NCBI GenBank assembly: GCA_031288635.1
Contig: JAITQZ010000013.1
Coordinates: 1 to 5,149, forward strand
Length of the DNA stretch: 5,149 bases
Reading direction: 5' to 3'
From: Candidatus Peribacteria bacterium
GTDB taxonomy: Bacteria; Patescibacteria; JAEDAM01; Absconditabacterales; Absconditicoccaceae
Each line of letters opens with the position of its first letter. Position 1 is the stretch's first letter. The translations under genes and the position numbers were made by a program. The notes beneath the pieces were generated by a model. It saw nothing but the letters and a program-made list of their open reading frames with translations. It had not been told where the DNA came from and searched no databases. Shown here in pieces: positions 1 to 5,149 of the stretch.

Positions 1-2810
1 GGGGTGTAGCCCTTTTCATTTGGCGTAAGGTAGGTGTAGGTTGCACGGTCTTTAGTAGTAATCAAATCCCATTCTCCATCTCCGTCGAAATCATATTGAA
101 TCGTTCTATGTGCGATAAAGTCGCTATTATCTGAAGTCACTTTTGCTACTACATCAAACGTTACCGTATCCCCTACATTCACCGTCTGTTTATCGAATTT
201 GAGTGTAACGATAGGAATATCAGGATTATTATTCGTTTGTGGAAAAAATACCGTTGGACCATTTCCAATGATTTGTTCGCTTTTTTGAGATCCATCGTCG
301 CTATCATACATTGTCACACCAAACATATATTCTCCTGCAATCCTTGGGAGCGTGAAAAACGTATACGGAATATTGCTCGGAGTAATTCTCGTCTCTAAAA
401 TCTGATTGGGATTGTCTTTAGGATAGTAATACCACTTAAAGTAAGCAACTCCTCCATTTGGACTATCGGGGTCTGTAGCTCCGACCGCAGTGACTTTCAC
501 AATCAGATTTCCATCTGTGGTAGCACTCCCCGGGTCGAGGACATTTTGTACTTTGTTCTCTTGAAATCCAATACCCGTTTCATTTCCATATTGAGGAAAA
601 GAGAGGGTGATATTCTTCAGGGTAGGGAGAGCATTTTGGACTTTGAACCAAATTCTGGAGTAGGCTTGATTTCCAATTTCGGTATCACTGACCGTGAGAT
701 CAATGTATTGGCAGCCGATTTCGTTAAATTTATACGTGAAACTGGTCTGCGGATACACGGACTCATATTTAGGCTGAAAGTAAAATTTGAGCCCCGCACT
801 CATTCCTTTAGAGTTTACGGAGATGCTTGGGTCGATGGTGATGTTTTGATATCTATCTACGGTATAAGCAGCATAGGTAGCGGTTTTCCCATTCTCTTCA
901 ACAGCACAGCTTTCGGTAGTTTGTAGGAAAAATCCCCCACTATTTTTGGTCCTAAACGCAGCAATTGGAAATCCTATTTCCCCGATAAAGACTTTTTCGG
1001 TGACACTGTTGCTATTCCCATTCGAGTCGGATACCTGTACCGTCACCGTATAGACTCAGATTTGTCTATAAATGTGTTGCATCTGATTAGACTGATTGGA
1101 ATTGGTGGTACTATCTCCAAAATTCCACTGATAATTGATAATAGGTTTGTTGGTTTGTACACTAAATTCCACATTCTTCCCTCGAGTAATGGCATTGGGA
1201 TTGACCGTCAATTCTGGTCTGAGAATAGAAGTAACATTCACTGATTTCTCGATAGAGGCAGATTTTCCATACATATCAATAACGGTAAGCTTAATGGTAT
1301 GCTGTCCTATTTCATCAAACTGTACCACGACTTTTTTGTTATTCTCTGTGGTGGAAATGACTTTACTCACGTTAGGGTTGGAAAATTCCCATCTGTATTC
1401 GAGAGAGTCGTTTTGATTGGTGACATCCAAATCGGCAGAAGAAGTCGCATCTAAATGAAATTCTGAAGCTTGAGCTCGTTTATTCGTTGGAGTAATGGTA
1501 AACTGTGGAACAGGGGTACTCGACTCTACGTAGAGTTCTTTAGTATCCACATTCGTCTCTCCGAGCTCATCTTCCAAGGTCAGCTTAACCATATAATTTC
1601 CTGGTTTGGTAAACTGCTTTTTAATGCTTTTCCCTTGAATAGTATCGGTCTTGGTTCCATTACTATCAAAAATCTCCCACGTATACAGCTTGAGACGAGC
1701 CGTAAGGGAATACGAAGCACTAGAATCAAAGCTGAACGTTGTGGAGGTATTCCCTTCATCCGGAGTTTGTTTAATAATTGCGACCGGGTCAGACACCGTG
1801 AGACTAAACGTTTCAGATACGGTATTAGTTTCATTATCCGTGGTGGCGAGTTTTATCAGATATTCGCCGTTGCCATTGAGAGGGACATTAATATATCTAG
1901 GCACCCCATCAAACTCTCTGCTTCGTTTAAATCCATCCCTACTGGTAATGGTTCGTGCGTGGCGAAGAATTCTTCTTCCTCCCGTAGGCATTGTAGGAGA
2001 ACCATCGAAAATCACCCCTTTTTGGGCTTCTTGGGTTCCGATTTTTGTTGGTCTGGTTTTGTCGAGTTGTTTAGTATTGGCATAGACGACAATATTTGCT
2101 GCTTTTGGTTCCACATCGACATTAAGATCCATTTCTCCATCTAAAATTCCTTTGGAGTGATTGGAACTTCTCACCGTGAGATGTACAACATAGTTTCCCG
2201 ACTCTTCAAACGTATAGTTAATGACTTCTCCGACACCAATAGGTCTAAAAATCCCTTTGGTATCCCTGTAATATCGAAAAAAATTTCTCGTAGGAATGGT
2301 CTCGTTGCTCGGGTCTTTACTGCCTCTCGCACTAAAGGTCACCGTTAATGGTGCGGCTCCATTTCCAGGATTTTTGGTAGCAGAGACTTTCACGGTGTAT
2401 TGCGTGTTAATCGTGTTGATAAGTTTACTGAGGGGGGTATAGCAGTTATCCATAAACGACTGGAAATTGAGAAGAGTATTGGCTGCTGCAAGCGTTTCTG
2501 TACCATCTAGACATTGTTGGTAGACCACTTTGAAATTATACTCTTGAGGAAATGCAGAAAAAACCGTCCCAAAGTTGCTATGAAGTTTGGTGAAAAGGTC
2601 GCTGCTGAGCTTATCCGTTTTCCCAGATTTTTTGGCTGCATCCAGCTGGACAAAAATGTCTTGGATTTTCCCGAGTTCCGTTTGGATTTCGTGATTAGCG
2701 TAGTATTCAAGAGGCACATCATCTGCTGCCAGAGCAGGCAAAGCCAAAAAGGCTGTAAACAAACCGATGAGGAGCGTTAAAAAGGTGATACGTTGTGTTT
2801 TTGTTTGCAT
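1..2810 (-). CDS. Secreted multi-PKD-domain surface protein, C-terminus beyond window; contains in-frame TGA read as Gly
   Basis: Exported, probably cell-surface protein built of serial PKD-like beta-sandwich domains; in this family they serve adhesion or as structural spacers. Numbered from ATG 2810: signal peptide about 1-28 (basic n-region, TFLTLLIGLFTAFLALP core, cleavage after ALA); helical unknown domain about 32-137 with C100 and C123; PKD-like units at about 139-232, 238-340, 341-430, 434-527, 531-610, 611-725, 726-852 and from 863. Most end in a G-x-Y-x-V-x-L-x-V strand; the last has an acidic DFDGDGEWD loop that may bind calcium. A TGA at codon 585 would end the protein under the standard code, but the frame continues with PKD sequence for 351 codons without another stop. 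A GTG at 2817-2819 could add three residues; ATG is preferred because it gives a normal signal peptide. An in-frame TAG lies further upstream. No Shine-Dalgarno is evident; promoter at 2843-2870. PKD assignment is confident, the role inferred. Confidence 0.88.
1056..1058 (-). other. In-frame TGA codon, probably decoded as glycine (code 25)
   Basis: The codon lies between ATC and GTC in the fifth PKD-like domain, giving HIYRQI-[TGA]-VYTVTVQVSD. The equivalent position in the other complete domains is glycine: ESG-NY, GNG-EY, KPG-NY, EIG-QH, EIG-CQ and IAG-EY (residues 205, 315, 404, 502, 699 and 826 from ATG 2810). The frame is unchanged on both sides and stays open to the left edge. Reassignment of UGA to glycine is established for Gracilibacteria and Absconditabacteria. 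Alternatives are a nonsense mutation (GGA to TGA is one base change) or a sequence error. Confidence 0.8.
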
Positions 2811-2842
2811 CTGAGCCACAATAAAAGATAAATACTATTTTA

Positions 2843-2897: not shown

Positions 2898-4124
2898 TTA
2901 TTTTTTCTTGGCTTGTACCCGTCCAACCACCACTTTCTCTTGAAATTCTACCAAATCCACCAGTTGACGTAATTGTTCCGGATGGGACTGCAAAAATTTC
3001 GTTAACTCTTTCGACTTTACCGTCATACTGAGTAAATCTCGTAAATCGTGTTTCAGCAGAAATTGCTTCAACGCATCACCTTGATCAACTTTTGCTTTAT
3101 ACTCATCTTGGTAAGCCACTTTTACTTGAGCTTCATTTCCATACAGATTGCTCCATCCTTCATCGCGATGAGCTTGCACATATTCTTCCAAAAATGCTTT
3201 AATCGTCTGGATTTCCTCTTCCAACGCTTTTTTCTGCTGTTGCAGATGATAAAATTTATCAATCAGCTTTTTAATAGAGGTTTCTCCAATCTCGGTCATC
3301 ATCACTTCATCCTCAGTAAACTTATGCTTCCACAGCGGACACAGCACTTGATAAGGACATCGACGACAATGGTTGCCTTCAGTAGCCTGAAATGCCTCTT
3401 TATTCCCCATATTGTACCTAAAAAGCGTGTCTTCCACCACTACAATCTTCTCTTCAATCTTTTTGATGGTAGACTCCAGCATTTCACGGGTAATCTCTCG
3501 TGTGATTTCCTGTTGCAAACGCAGATAAATCAGCTTTCCTTCTACATTTTTTGCGATATGGGAATAGTGCTGCATTACTCGAATAGCGTAGCTTGTCAAC
3601 TGTTGCTGATAACTCTCTGCAAAGGTAGAGAACGGAGCAATGGATTTATCCGTCTTGTAGTCCACGATAATCGCCGTATCTCCTTTCAAATCCAGTCTAT
3701 CAATAATCCCCCTAAATTTGGCACCACTGGGCAAATCAAAATGGATATTCTGCTCCAACCCGTTGATTTTCGTTTCTGTAAAAGGAGCATACTGCTCGTA
3801 ATATCGTTCAATCATCTGCTTGCCTAATAACATCCTCTCCTCAAACTCCTGTGCAGCAAAGGGAAGCTCTGAAAGGCTGTCATATTGTTGGCGATAGGTC
3901 TGCATTTCAGACTGAAAATATTGGAGGAGGGCAGACTTCTCTGGTGCTTGTCCAGCATTTTGGATCGTTTTATAGAGAACTTCCAGAGTGGCATGGAGGA
4001 TTTTTCCAAACTTTAATGCGGGAGATTCAGCGATTTGAGGTTCGGGGATTTTATCCAGATATTTATAGCGATAGTGTAGCGGGCATTCGTCGAAGATTTT
4101 CAGTTGGGAGTGAGAGTAGGGCAT
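2898..4124 (-). CDS. PD-(D/E)XK nuclease, RecB/AddB/Cas4-like, with predicted 4Fe-4S cluster
   Basis: Predicted metal-dependent DNA exonuclease of the PD-(D/E)XK superfamily, 408 residues, cytoplasmic. In order: N-terminal YSHSQLKIFDECPLHYRY with C14; FGKILHATLE with motif-I H44; FRGIIDRLD with acidic D142; IIVDYKTDK with D155 and K157, the D-x-K catalytic pair; QQQLTSYA, the QxxxY motif with Q175 and Y179; and CRRCPYQVLCP with C253, C256 and C262. C14 plus the last three is the split four-cysteine pattern that binds 4Fe-4S in AddB and Cas4. All catalytic residues are present, so it should be active. Residues about 283-315 look like a coiled coil, followed by a charged tail to 408 that I cannot assign. 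The start is ATG 4124, with an in-frame TAA upstream and no clear Shine-Dalgarno; it ends in TAA. No helicase partner or cas gene is visible. A role in recombination, repair or mobile-element processing is inferred. Confidence 0.88.
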   Translation of the reverse strand: MPYSHSQLKIFDECPLHYRYKYLDKIPEPQIAESPALKFGKILHATLEVLYKTIQNAGQAPEKSALLQYFQSEMQTYRQQYDSLSELPFAAQEFEERMLLGKQMIERYYEQYAPFTETKINGLEQNIHFDLPSGAKFRGIIDRLDLKGDTAIIVDYKTDKSIAPFSTFAESYQQQLTSYAIRVMQHYSHIAKNVEGKLIYLRLQQEITREITREMLESTIKKIEEKIVVVEDTLFRYNMGNKEAFQATEGNHCRRCPYQVLCPLWKHKFTEDEVMMTEIGETSIKKLIDKFYHLQQQKKALEEEIQTIKAFLEEYVQAHRDEGWSNLYGNEAQVKVAYQDEYKAKVDQGDALKQFLLKHDLRDLLSMTVKSKELTKFLQSHPEQLRQLVDLVEFQEKVVVGRVQAKKK

Positions 4125-4536: not shown

Positions 4537-5149
4537 ATGAACACCAAAAAATTTCTTCTATCTCTGACCGCATTTCTCCTGCTGTTTAATCAGCTAGAAA
4601 TTGGATATATATATATGCAATAGAAAATCCCCAGCAACCAGTGACAAATTCTTTGACAGAAACCACCCCTCAGCCCGACCAGTACCCCGACTCCAGTAGG
4701 AACGATGGCTTGCCTCCTACGGACTCCACCGGAGATGGAGTCGATTATCCAGATGATCCCCAGCCGGACCAGTATCCCGATTCCAGTAGGGACGATGGCT
4801 TGCCTCGTCCGGACTCCGCCGAAGACGGAGTTGGTTATTCAGATGATCCCCAGCCTGTGGAGCCCCCTTACCAGGGGGGCAGCGACGAAGTCGCGGGGGA
4901 TTTAGTGGAGGAAATCCTTTCAGACACGCTTTTCAGTACGTCTGCGGTTACTAATGCATCTTCCACTTATCCGGGTTGTAACCACGTAGACTTGACAGTT
5001 GATAGCTATACGATAGCAGCGTGTAATGTTGGAGCAACAGTAGCAGGGACGAGTGTAGCTTCCTACGGTTCTTGGTTCCAGTGGGGAAATAATTATGAAT
5101 TTGAAAATAATGGAAATTCTATAACTCCAACCACAACAGCAGTAAATAC
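4537..5149 (+). CDS. Exported low-complexity repeat protein, frameshifted at an AT repeat; C-terminus beyond window
   Basis: Probably a secreted or surface protein. ATG 4537 starts a signal peptide (MNTKK, then FLLSLTAFLLLFNQ), but that frame ends at TAG 4621-4623. The frame one base back (codons from 4617: AIENPQQPVTNSLTET...) is open for 177 codons to the right edge. The switch point is (AT)6 at 4605-4616; with five units the product would read ...LEIGYIYA-IENPQQ, a plausible signal peptidase site. The mature part has two 30-residue acidic, Pro-rich repeats beginning PQPDQYPDSS, a stretch encoded by GC-rich hairpins, and then TYPGCNHVDLTVDSYTIAAC and YGSWFQWGNNYEFENN. The last motif loosely recalls FISUMP-type (Fibrobacter succinogenes major paralogous) domains; this is a memory-based impression. 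The mature frame has no TGA and no start giving a signal peptide of its own. A phase-variable gene, a pseudogene or a sequencing indel all fit. No Shine-Dalgarno is seen. Confidence 0.7.
4605..4616 (+). repeat. (AT)6 dinucleotide repeat at the signal-peptide frame junction
   Basis: Six uninterrupted AT units follow GG and precede GC. The signal-peptide frame runs into TAG seven bases after the tract. Five or eight units would join it to the long open mature frame, whereas six or seven leave it off. Short tandem repeats in a signal-peptide region are a classic site of slipped-strand phase variation, although six units is short for a highly mutable tract. Confidence 0.85.
4696..4742 (+). repeat. 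Two hairpins inside repeat unit 1
   Basis: First hairpin: GTAGGA (4696-4701) pairs with TCCTAC (4715-4720), with GGC-TT-GCC forming an inner stem at 4707-4714. Second hairpin: GACTCCA (4722-4728) pairs with TGGAGTC (4736-4742) around a 7-base loop. Both lie within coding sequence. Confidence 0.7.
4790..4832 (+). repeat. Two hairpins inside repeat unit 2
   Basis: First hairpin: GGACGA (4790-4795) pairs with TCGTCC (4805-4810), then, past a bulged T, GGC (4797-4799) pairs with GCC (4802-4804) around a TT loop. Second hairpin: GACTCCG (4812-4818) pairs with CGGAGTT (4826-4832), the outermost pair being G-U in RNA. These are the counterparts of the unit 1 stems with altered but still pairing bases. 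Confidence 0.7.
4862..4894 (+). repeat. Pair of adjacent GC-rich inverted repeats in coding sequence
   Basis: GCCCCC (4862-4867) pairs with GGGGGC (4875-4880), loop of 7. GCGAC (4882-4886) then pairs with GTCGC (4890-4894), loop GAA. They encode PPYQGGSDEVAG in frame. No T-run follows, so a terminator is unlikely. The look is that of a dispersed palindromic element inserted in frame just where the third tandem unit breaks off. Confidence 0.7.

Follow-up and report, generated by a model that had tools for sequence, protein, structure and literature searches.

A UGA codon most probably read as glycine in a multi-PKD protein gene of an uncultured Absconditabacterium

In SR1/Absconditabacteria, as in Gracilibacteria, UGA is translated as glycine (NCBI table 25; Campbell 2013 and Rinke 2013, as cited in PMC8629427); this code is also treated by Hanke 2014 (PMC4032931). 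A second reassignment, of CGA and CGG to tryptophan, was described in Absconditabacteria by Shulgina & Eddy 2021 (PMC8629427) and is stated for Absconditabacterales in PMC13092985. According to the passages of PMC8629427 that deal with codon usage, the reassigned codons have not yet rebounded and CGA stays below 37 per 10,000 in all of its species, one of which has CGA near parity with UGG. Searches limited to open-licence papers yielded publications on both reassignments and none on order-wide UGA-glycine usage. The window described here (the whole stretch of DNA that was analysed, 5,149 nucleotides of contig JAITQZ010000013.1) is, judging from its sequence, almost certainly a genome piece of an uncultured Absconditabacterium (SR1) in which UGA is a glycine codon. 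Both UGA=Gly and CGA/CGG=Trp are already known for this lineage, and the window is a new contig with a known code variant.

The PKD-protein frame and its TGA codon

On the minus strand of the window, a frame that runs from a GTG at 2819 to the window edge (2819..3) comprises 939 codons with zero TAA or TAG. Its sole in-frame stop-type codon is a TGA at 1056-1058, codon 588 counted from the GTG. As the frame is open at the edge it is at least 939 codons long, which confirms the description in an earlier note of one TGA in an otherwise open frame of at least 936 codons. Translated with TGA as sense, it gives the first 939 codons of an edge-cut multi-PKD protein (3..2819) with a signal-peptide-like start, several PKD domains and a PKD_4 match (E-value: 7e-37). 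Of 7,990 candidates that were scored, 308 proved to be homologues. The best-scoring ones are approximately 1,400 aa in length, and several are named SR1 or Absconditabacteria and one Gracilibacteria. The complete homologue P0046 (1417 aa, 69% identity) has a hydrophobic C-terminal segment that, in our own reading of the sequence, resembles a membrane anchor. The PKD protein is a putative surface protein that may serve in attachment. The earlier note was right that the standard code cuts this protein, but the size it gave (587 residues from the GTG) differs from that of the database call: the standard-code product in the protein database (P0049) is 584 aa in length and starts at an ATG at 2810, three codons past the GTG.

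Glycine is encoded in the window's PKD gene by GGA (31), GGG (16), GGT (7), GGC (5) and TGA (1; n = 60). Because GGA accounts for 31 of the 70 codons of the frame that lie one step from TGA (44%), the landing of a TGA on any glycine is weak evidence by itself. The chance of a TGA landing in one of the 19 invariant-glycine columns out of 939 is approximately 2%. In each of these columns, all orthologues that are present (30; 29 for one column) carry GGN or TGA, and the columns include codon 588 as well as the glycines of six other PKD-like domains (208, 318, 407, 505, 702 and 829) with which the earlier note had compared it, so its placing of the TGA on a conserved glycine holds. At the DNA level, codon 588 is TGA in 13 of 30 orthologues and GGN in 17 (GGT 9, GGA 6, GGC 1 and GGG 1). 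TGA stands there in G001 (JAISMG010000028, labelled Ca. Peribacteria), which at 70% identity is the nearest genome found, and in G002 (BNUE01000024, SR1 bacterium MS502-49); the sister genomes G144 and G095 have GGA. This recurrence of TGA at codon 588 in 13 of 30 orthologues, the nearest genome found included, is the decisive point.

The PKD gene was matched in 48 of the 49 genomes of the order, one match being partial and one also having a TAA, and all 48 orthologues contain in-frame TGA (3 to 53 each); codon counts refer to the 30 of these 48 that have loci. Over the PKD family, 616 TGA codons score G at +1168 nats and the next best residue at -364 (log-odds from our own Codetta-like score, which is uncalibrated and computed on related rows), in agreement with the expectation of TGA at conserved glycine positions. 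In the family of a neighbouring nuclease gene, TGA falls on columns of Gly (91), D (13), A (7) and N (5), and GGN on columns of G (140), A (19) and N (7). When compared with proteins from 0.4 Mb of G003 (Tepidibacillus, code 11), TGA is on glycine in 41 of 60 codons for G001 and in 101 of 139 for G002.

At site 588, 29 of 41 database homologues have G and 10 have W, while N and K occur once each. The W entries most likely represent a table 4 reading of TGA, because the alternatives to TGA at the DNA level are GGN only, with no TGG in the 30 orthologues. For both the PKD protein and the nuclease, some public calls have W where relatives have G at further sites besides 588, again most likely from table 4. 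As some of the W are most likely table-4 TGA, counts of W and R from database proteins were dropped for counts at the DNA level.

Upstream of the PKD gene lies a gene encoding a RecB/Cas4-like PD-(D/E)XK nuclease (2898..4124, minus strand; 408 aa, stop TAA; PDDEXK_1 match, E-value: 6e-33). The window's copy contains zero TGA and its relatives have in-frame TGA; nuclease codon counts are based on 30 of 37 matches (33 genomes), those with loci, and the rows of G028 and G016 contain one TAA or TAG each. A phage origin of the nuclease was considered and rejected, with no match in the phage collection (distant blastn). On the plus strand, a signal-peptide-like start at 4537-4640 (MNTKKFLLSLTAFLLLFNQ...) hits a TAG at 4621 just past a (TA)5 tract (4606-4615), and the long frame downstream of this TAG is in a different frame. 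The tract is possibly slippage-prone (phase-variable) or the site of an assembly indel. Further along the same strand (4671-4855), a 90-base tandem repeat (2.1 copies, 87% matches) codes for QPDQYPDSSR(N/D)DGLP-type repeats; the frame that bears it had no Pfam or NCBIfam match.

Lineage and translation machinery of the relatives

The nuclease gene led to both G001 (78% identity) and G002 (67% identity). In a tree of the PKD protein (31 rows), the window falls in a clade with G001, G144, G002 and G095 (support 99/97). G002 alone of these four clade mates has an SR1 name; their order includes an SR1 bacterium. There is no 16S or ribosomal marker gene in the window. The earlier suggestion that a single UGA site points to the lineage is upheld by relatives and a one-gene tree, both of which place the window with SR1/Absconditabacteria. 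The contig JAISMG010000028.1 (L001) is labelled Candidatus Peribacteria. This label is probably wrong, because the genome to which the contig belongs shares its order with an SR1 genome, reads TGA as Gly and has no RF2 over the cut-off.

RF2 was found above its curated cut-off in 0 of the 49 genomes of the order versus 10 of 14 control genomes; it was also above the cut-off in G003. For any one genome, which may be incomplete, a missing RF2 is not conclusive. Weaker, below-cut-off hits occur in 46 of the 49. A separate RF2 gene in G001 and G002 was rejected, as the only TIGR00020 hits in these genomes, below cut-off, are the prfA locus, and prfA itself has in-frame TGA (1 in G001 and 7 in G002). 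Both genomes encode a tRNA-UCA of 74-75 nt with the glycine acceptor elements G1:C72, C2:G71, G3:C70 and U73 (read by eye, following a rule given in the tRNA passages of PMC8629427). This tRNA was matched by DNA in 43 of the 49 genomes of the order, with the anticodon itself read in G001 and G002 only and one match (G112) consisting of 24 bases without the anticodon; 6 of the 49 had no DNA match, and no tRNA-UCA lies within the window. Reading TGA as sense instead of stop lengthens the average ORF of G001 from 153 to 303 aa but leaves that of G003, the code-11 control, practically unaltered (281 versus 280 aa; simple ATG-to-stop caller on genome pieces, with no gene finder). Of the signs that the earlier note had proposed to look for, the lack of RF2 above the cut-off, the tRNA-UCA resembling tRNA-Gly and the code-dependent gene length were seen in relatives of the window.

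If the TGA at codon 588 were a real stop, the standard code would apply and the frame would be either a pseudogene disrupted by a nonsense mutation or a pair of adjacent genes. Consistent with this, the window has a single TGA, the neighbouring gene ends in TAA without containing any TGA, and an ORF with a GTG start lies directly after the TGA (1046..3). It is nonetheless extremely improbable given that 13 of 30 orthologues, G001 and G002 among them, share TGA at codon 588, that 939 codons pass without TAA or TAG, that RF2 was not detected in the order and that homologues of approximately 1,400 aa continue through site 588. A sequencing or assembly error, in which GGA was read as TGA, would be a single event at the commonest glycine codon (31 of 60), and GGA is the codon that the sister genomes G144 and G095 carry at this site. 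Against it, G001 and G002 have TGA at exactly codon 588, and each of the 48 orthologues has TGA in its PKD gene; we regard such an error as very improbable.

Another residue at UGA, either tryptophan (code 4) or selenocysteine, would fit the W at site 588 in 10 of 41 database homologues and the 'SeC' label given to the UCA tRNA by ARAGORN. Against it stand the zero TGG among the site-588 alternatives of the 30 orthologues, the margin by which TGA in the PKD family scores as G (+1168 nats, next best -364) and the length and glycine acceptor elements of the UCA tRNA, and we attach almost no probability to it. The reading of UGA as glycine in the window, as claimed in the earlier note, is supported by GGN or TGA at codon 588 in 30 of 30 orthologues, by relatives without RF2 over the cut-off and by tRNA-UCA in relatives. 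In the window's cell, a tRNA-UCA charged by glycyl-tRNA synthetase would insert glycine at codon 588, no RF2 would compete with it, and RF1 would terminate translation at UAA and UAG. The predicted product is a single multi-PKD protein of approximately 1,400 aa, rather than two fragments.

CGA and CGG codons

The window contains five CGA codons in the PKD gene, and five CGA and one CGG in the nuclease gene (all on the minus strand). The five in the PKD gene score W at +19.2 versus R at -9.8 nats, and each is most likely read as Trp. Four of them lie at positions where the 30 orthologues have mainly TGG or CGA: codon 182 (2274..2276; CGA 17, TGG 10, CGG 3), codon 289 (1953..1955; TGG 16, CGA 9, CGG 5), codon 448 (1476..1478; CGA 15, TGG 13, CGG 1, Leu 1) and codon 546 (1182..1184; TGG 17, CGA 11, Leu 2). 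The fifth, codon 299 (1923..1925), is at an aromatic position (Tyr 15, Phe 7, TGG 3, Ile 2, Gln 2, Ala 1) with zero Arg codons among the 30 orthologues. Across the PKD family, counting only columns with a majority residue and at least 8 unambiguous rows (others were excluded), 116 of 119 CGA, 19 of 19 CGG and 163 of 168 TGG are on Trp columns; CGT/CGC and AGA/AGG are mostly on Arg columns.

Taken singly, the six codons of the nuclease gene are harder to read. Codon 209 (3498..3500) is the clearest Trp of the six (TGG 14, CGA 13, CGG 1, F 1 and V 1 in 30 relatives), and codon 255 (3360..3362), an aromatic position, is probably Trp (Y 16, F 4, CGA 4, TGG 3, S 2 and G 1 in 30 relatives). Codon 362 (3039..3041) is at a hydrophobic position (L 16, F 3, I 3, V 2, TGG 1, Y 1 and E 1 among the 12 commonest codons), and codon 107 (3804..3806) is in a mixed column (N 7, S 4, TGG 3, CGA 2 and AGG 2 among others of the 12 commonest codons). 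The single CGG, codon 402 (2919..2921), lies in the poorly conserved C-terminus, where the 12 commonest codons comprise P 4, K 4, TGG 3 and A 2 and, once each, G, S, V, TGA, CGA and AGA. Codon 182 (3579..3581) is mostly Gly in distant relatives (TGA 13, GGN 11, TGG 3 and Ala 3 of 30). Database proteins suggested that this site was Trp, a reading that was set aside as 24 of 30 relatives have TGA or GGN at the DNA level; in the Absconditabacteria code, a single transition separates CGA (Trp) from TGA (Gly). Four CGA codons of the window's nuclease gene could be scored under the column rule given for the PKD family, and they fall in columns of G, W, Y and L; those of the nuclease family are on columns of W (27), Y (8), F (8), L (5), R (2) and G (1).

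When G001 is compared with G003 proteins, its 54 CGA codons are matched most often by W (21), followed by F (5), L (4), R (4) and Y (3), and its 50 TGG codons by W (21) and F (9); its CGG codons, too rare to be informative (5), correspond to Y (2), L, F and W. The numbers for G002 are small and weak: of 14 CGA, 3 are at W and 1 at R, and of 2 CGG, 0 are at W. In G001, both tRNA-UCG and tRNA-CCG carry G73 but no A20, whereas tRNA-Arg(GCG) has both A20 and A73 (all read by eye); the identity rule for positions A20 and 73 is taken from the tRNA passages of PMC8629427. DNA matches to the tRNA-CCG of G001 were present in 19 of 49 genomes, several of these matches being short. Evidence for CGA at Trp positions thus comes from the window itself and that for CGG from relatives, the window's single CGG being uninformative. 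Within the order, the share of CGA+CGG among CGA+CGG+TGG codons of the PKD gene ranges from 0 of 11-12 in G028 (L204), G228 (L211) and G236 (L213) to 7 of 8 in G188 (L214) and 9 of 11 in G154 (L216).

Based on these sequence comparisons, the window's lineage most likely uses both CGA and CGG for tryptophan, and the window's cell most likely reads them through tRNA-UCG and tRNA-CCG; its code would therefore be table 25 plus CGA/CGG=Trp. Of the earlier proposal of code 25, the assignment of UGA to Gly stands, but table 25 as the whole code does not, as CGA and CGG are most likely Trp and not Arg. With CGA/CGG as Trp, table 25 would mistranslate up to 11 further residues of the window. More generally, table 25 is insufficient for Absconditabacteria, leaving R where the cell most likely has W. 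Database records are already affected at the UGA site, in that the PKD protein stops at 584 residues (P0049) and W stands at this site in 10 of 41 homologues.

UGA usage and comparison with described codes

Of the glycine codons of the window, UGA makes up 1 of 60 in the PKD gene and 1 of 90 when three frames are taken together. Among the 31 rows of the PKD gene, the TGA share of glycine codons extends from 1.7% (the window, the lowest) to 74%, and it falls with rising GC content (Spearman -0.74 and -0.72 in two counts). The scarcity of UGA was rejected as a special trait of the window, whose share is approximately as its GC content predicts (z -0.86 in an overdispersed logistic GC fit made without the window). 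On the PKD tree, rows low in TGA require 6 changes and show no clustering (an equally low count came from 86 of 500 shuffles), and no inverse link was found between TGA share and CGA/CGG share in the PKD rows (rho -0.14, p 0.46). In conserved alignments, TGA accounts for 60 of 1,106 glycine codons in G001 (5.4%) and 139 of 441 in G002 (31.5%); a cruder count on ORFs of at least 300 aa gave 12.7% and 41.1%, respectively. The four clade mates have 3 to 20 TGA in the PKD gene versus 1 of 60 glycine codons in the window. It is conceivable, although we think it unlikely, that the two reassignments have reached opposite stages in the window's clade, CGA (together with CGG) having caught up with UGG for Trp while the glycine codon UGA is being emptied again by rising GC content. 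If this were true and UGA fell to zero, UGA would be free for loss or for a third meaning.

The case confirms that a recoded lineage can be recognised from a single in-frame TGA when the surrounding protein is taken into account. Like the lineages that use table 25, the window and its relatives have UGA at conserved Gly positions, and in the relatives RF2 is undetected and the tRNA-UCA is of the glycine type. The window differs from its table 25 relatives in the extent of UGA use in the PKD gene (1 of 60 glycine codons versus 3 of 58 to 41 of 60 in 30 orthologues). Contrary to table 25, which has CGA and CGG as Arg, the five CGA of the window's PKD gene favour W. In this the window resembles the code described by Shulgina & Eddy 2021, with CGA and CGG at Trp positions and, in G001, tRNA-UCG and tRNA-CCG with G73 and no A20. 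With respect to the codon usage stated in the passages of PMC8629427 cited above, CGA in G001 (54 of 15,000 aligned codons, or 36 per 10,000) is within the bound, whereas its CGA+CGG (59) are level with TGG (50) in aligned codons, as set against reassigned codons that have not yet rebounded.
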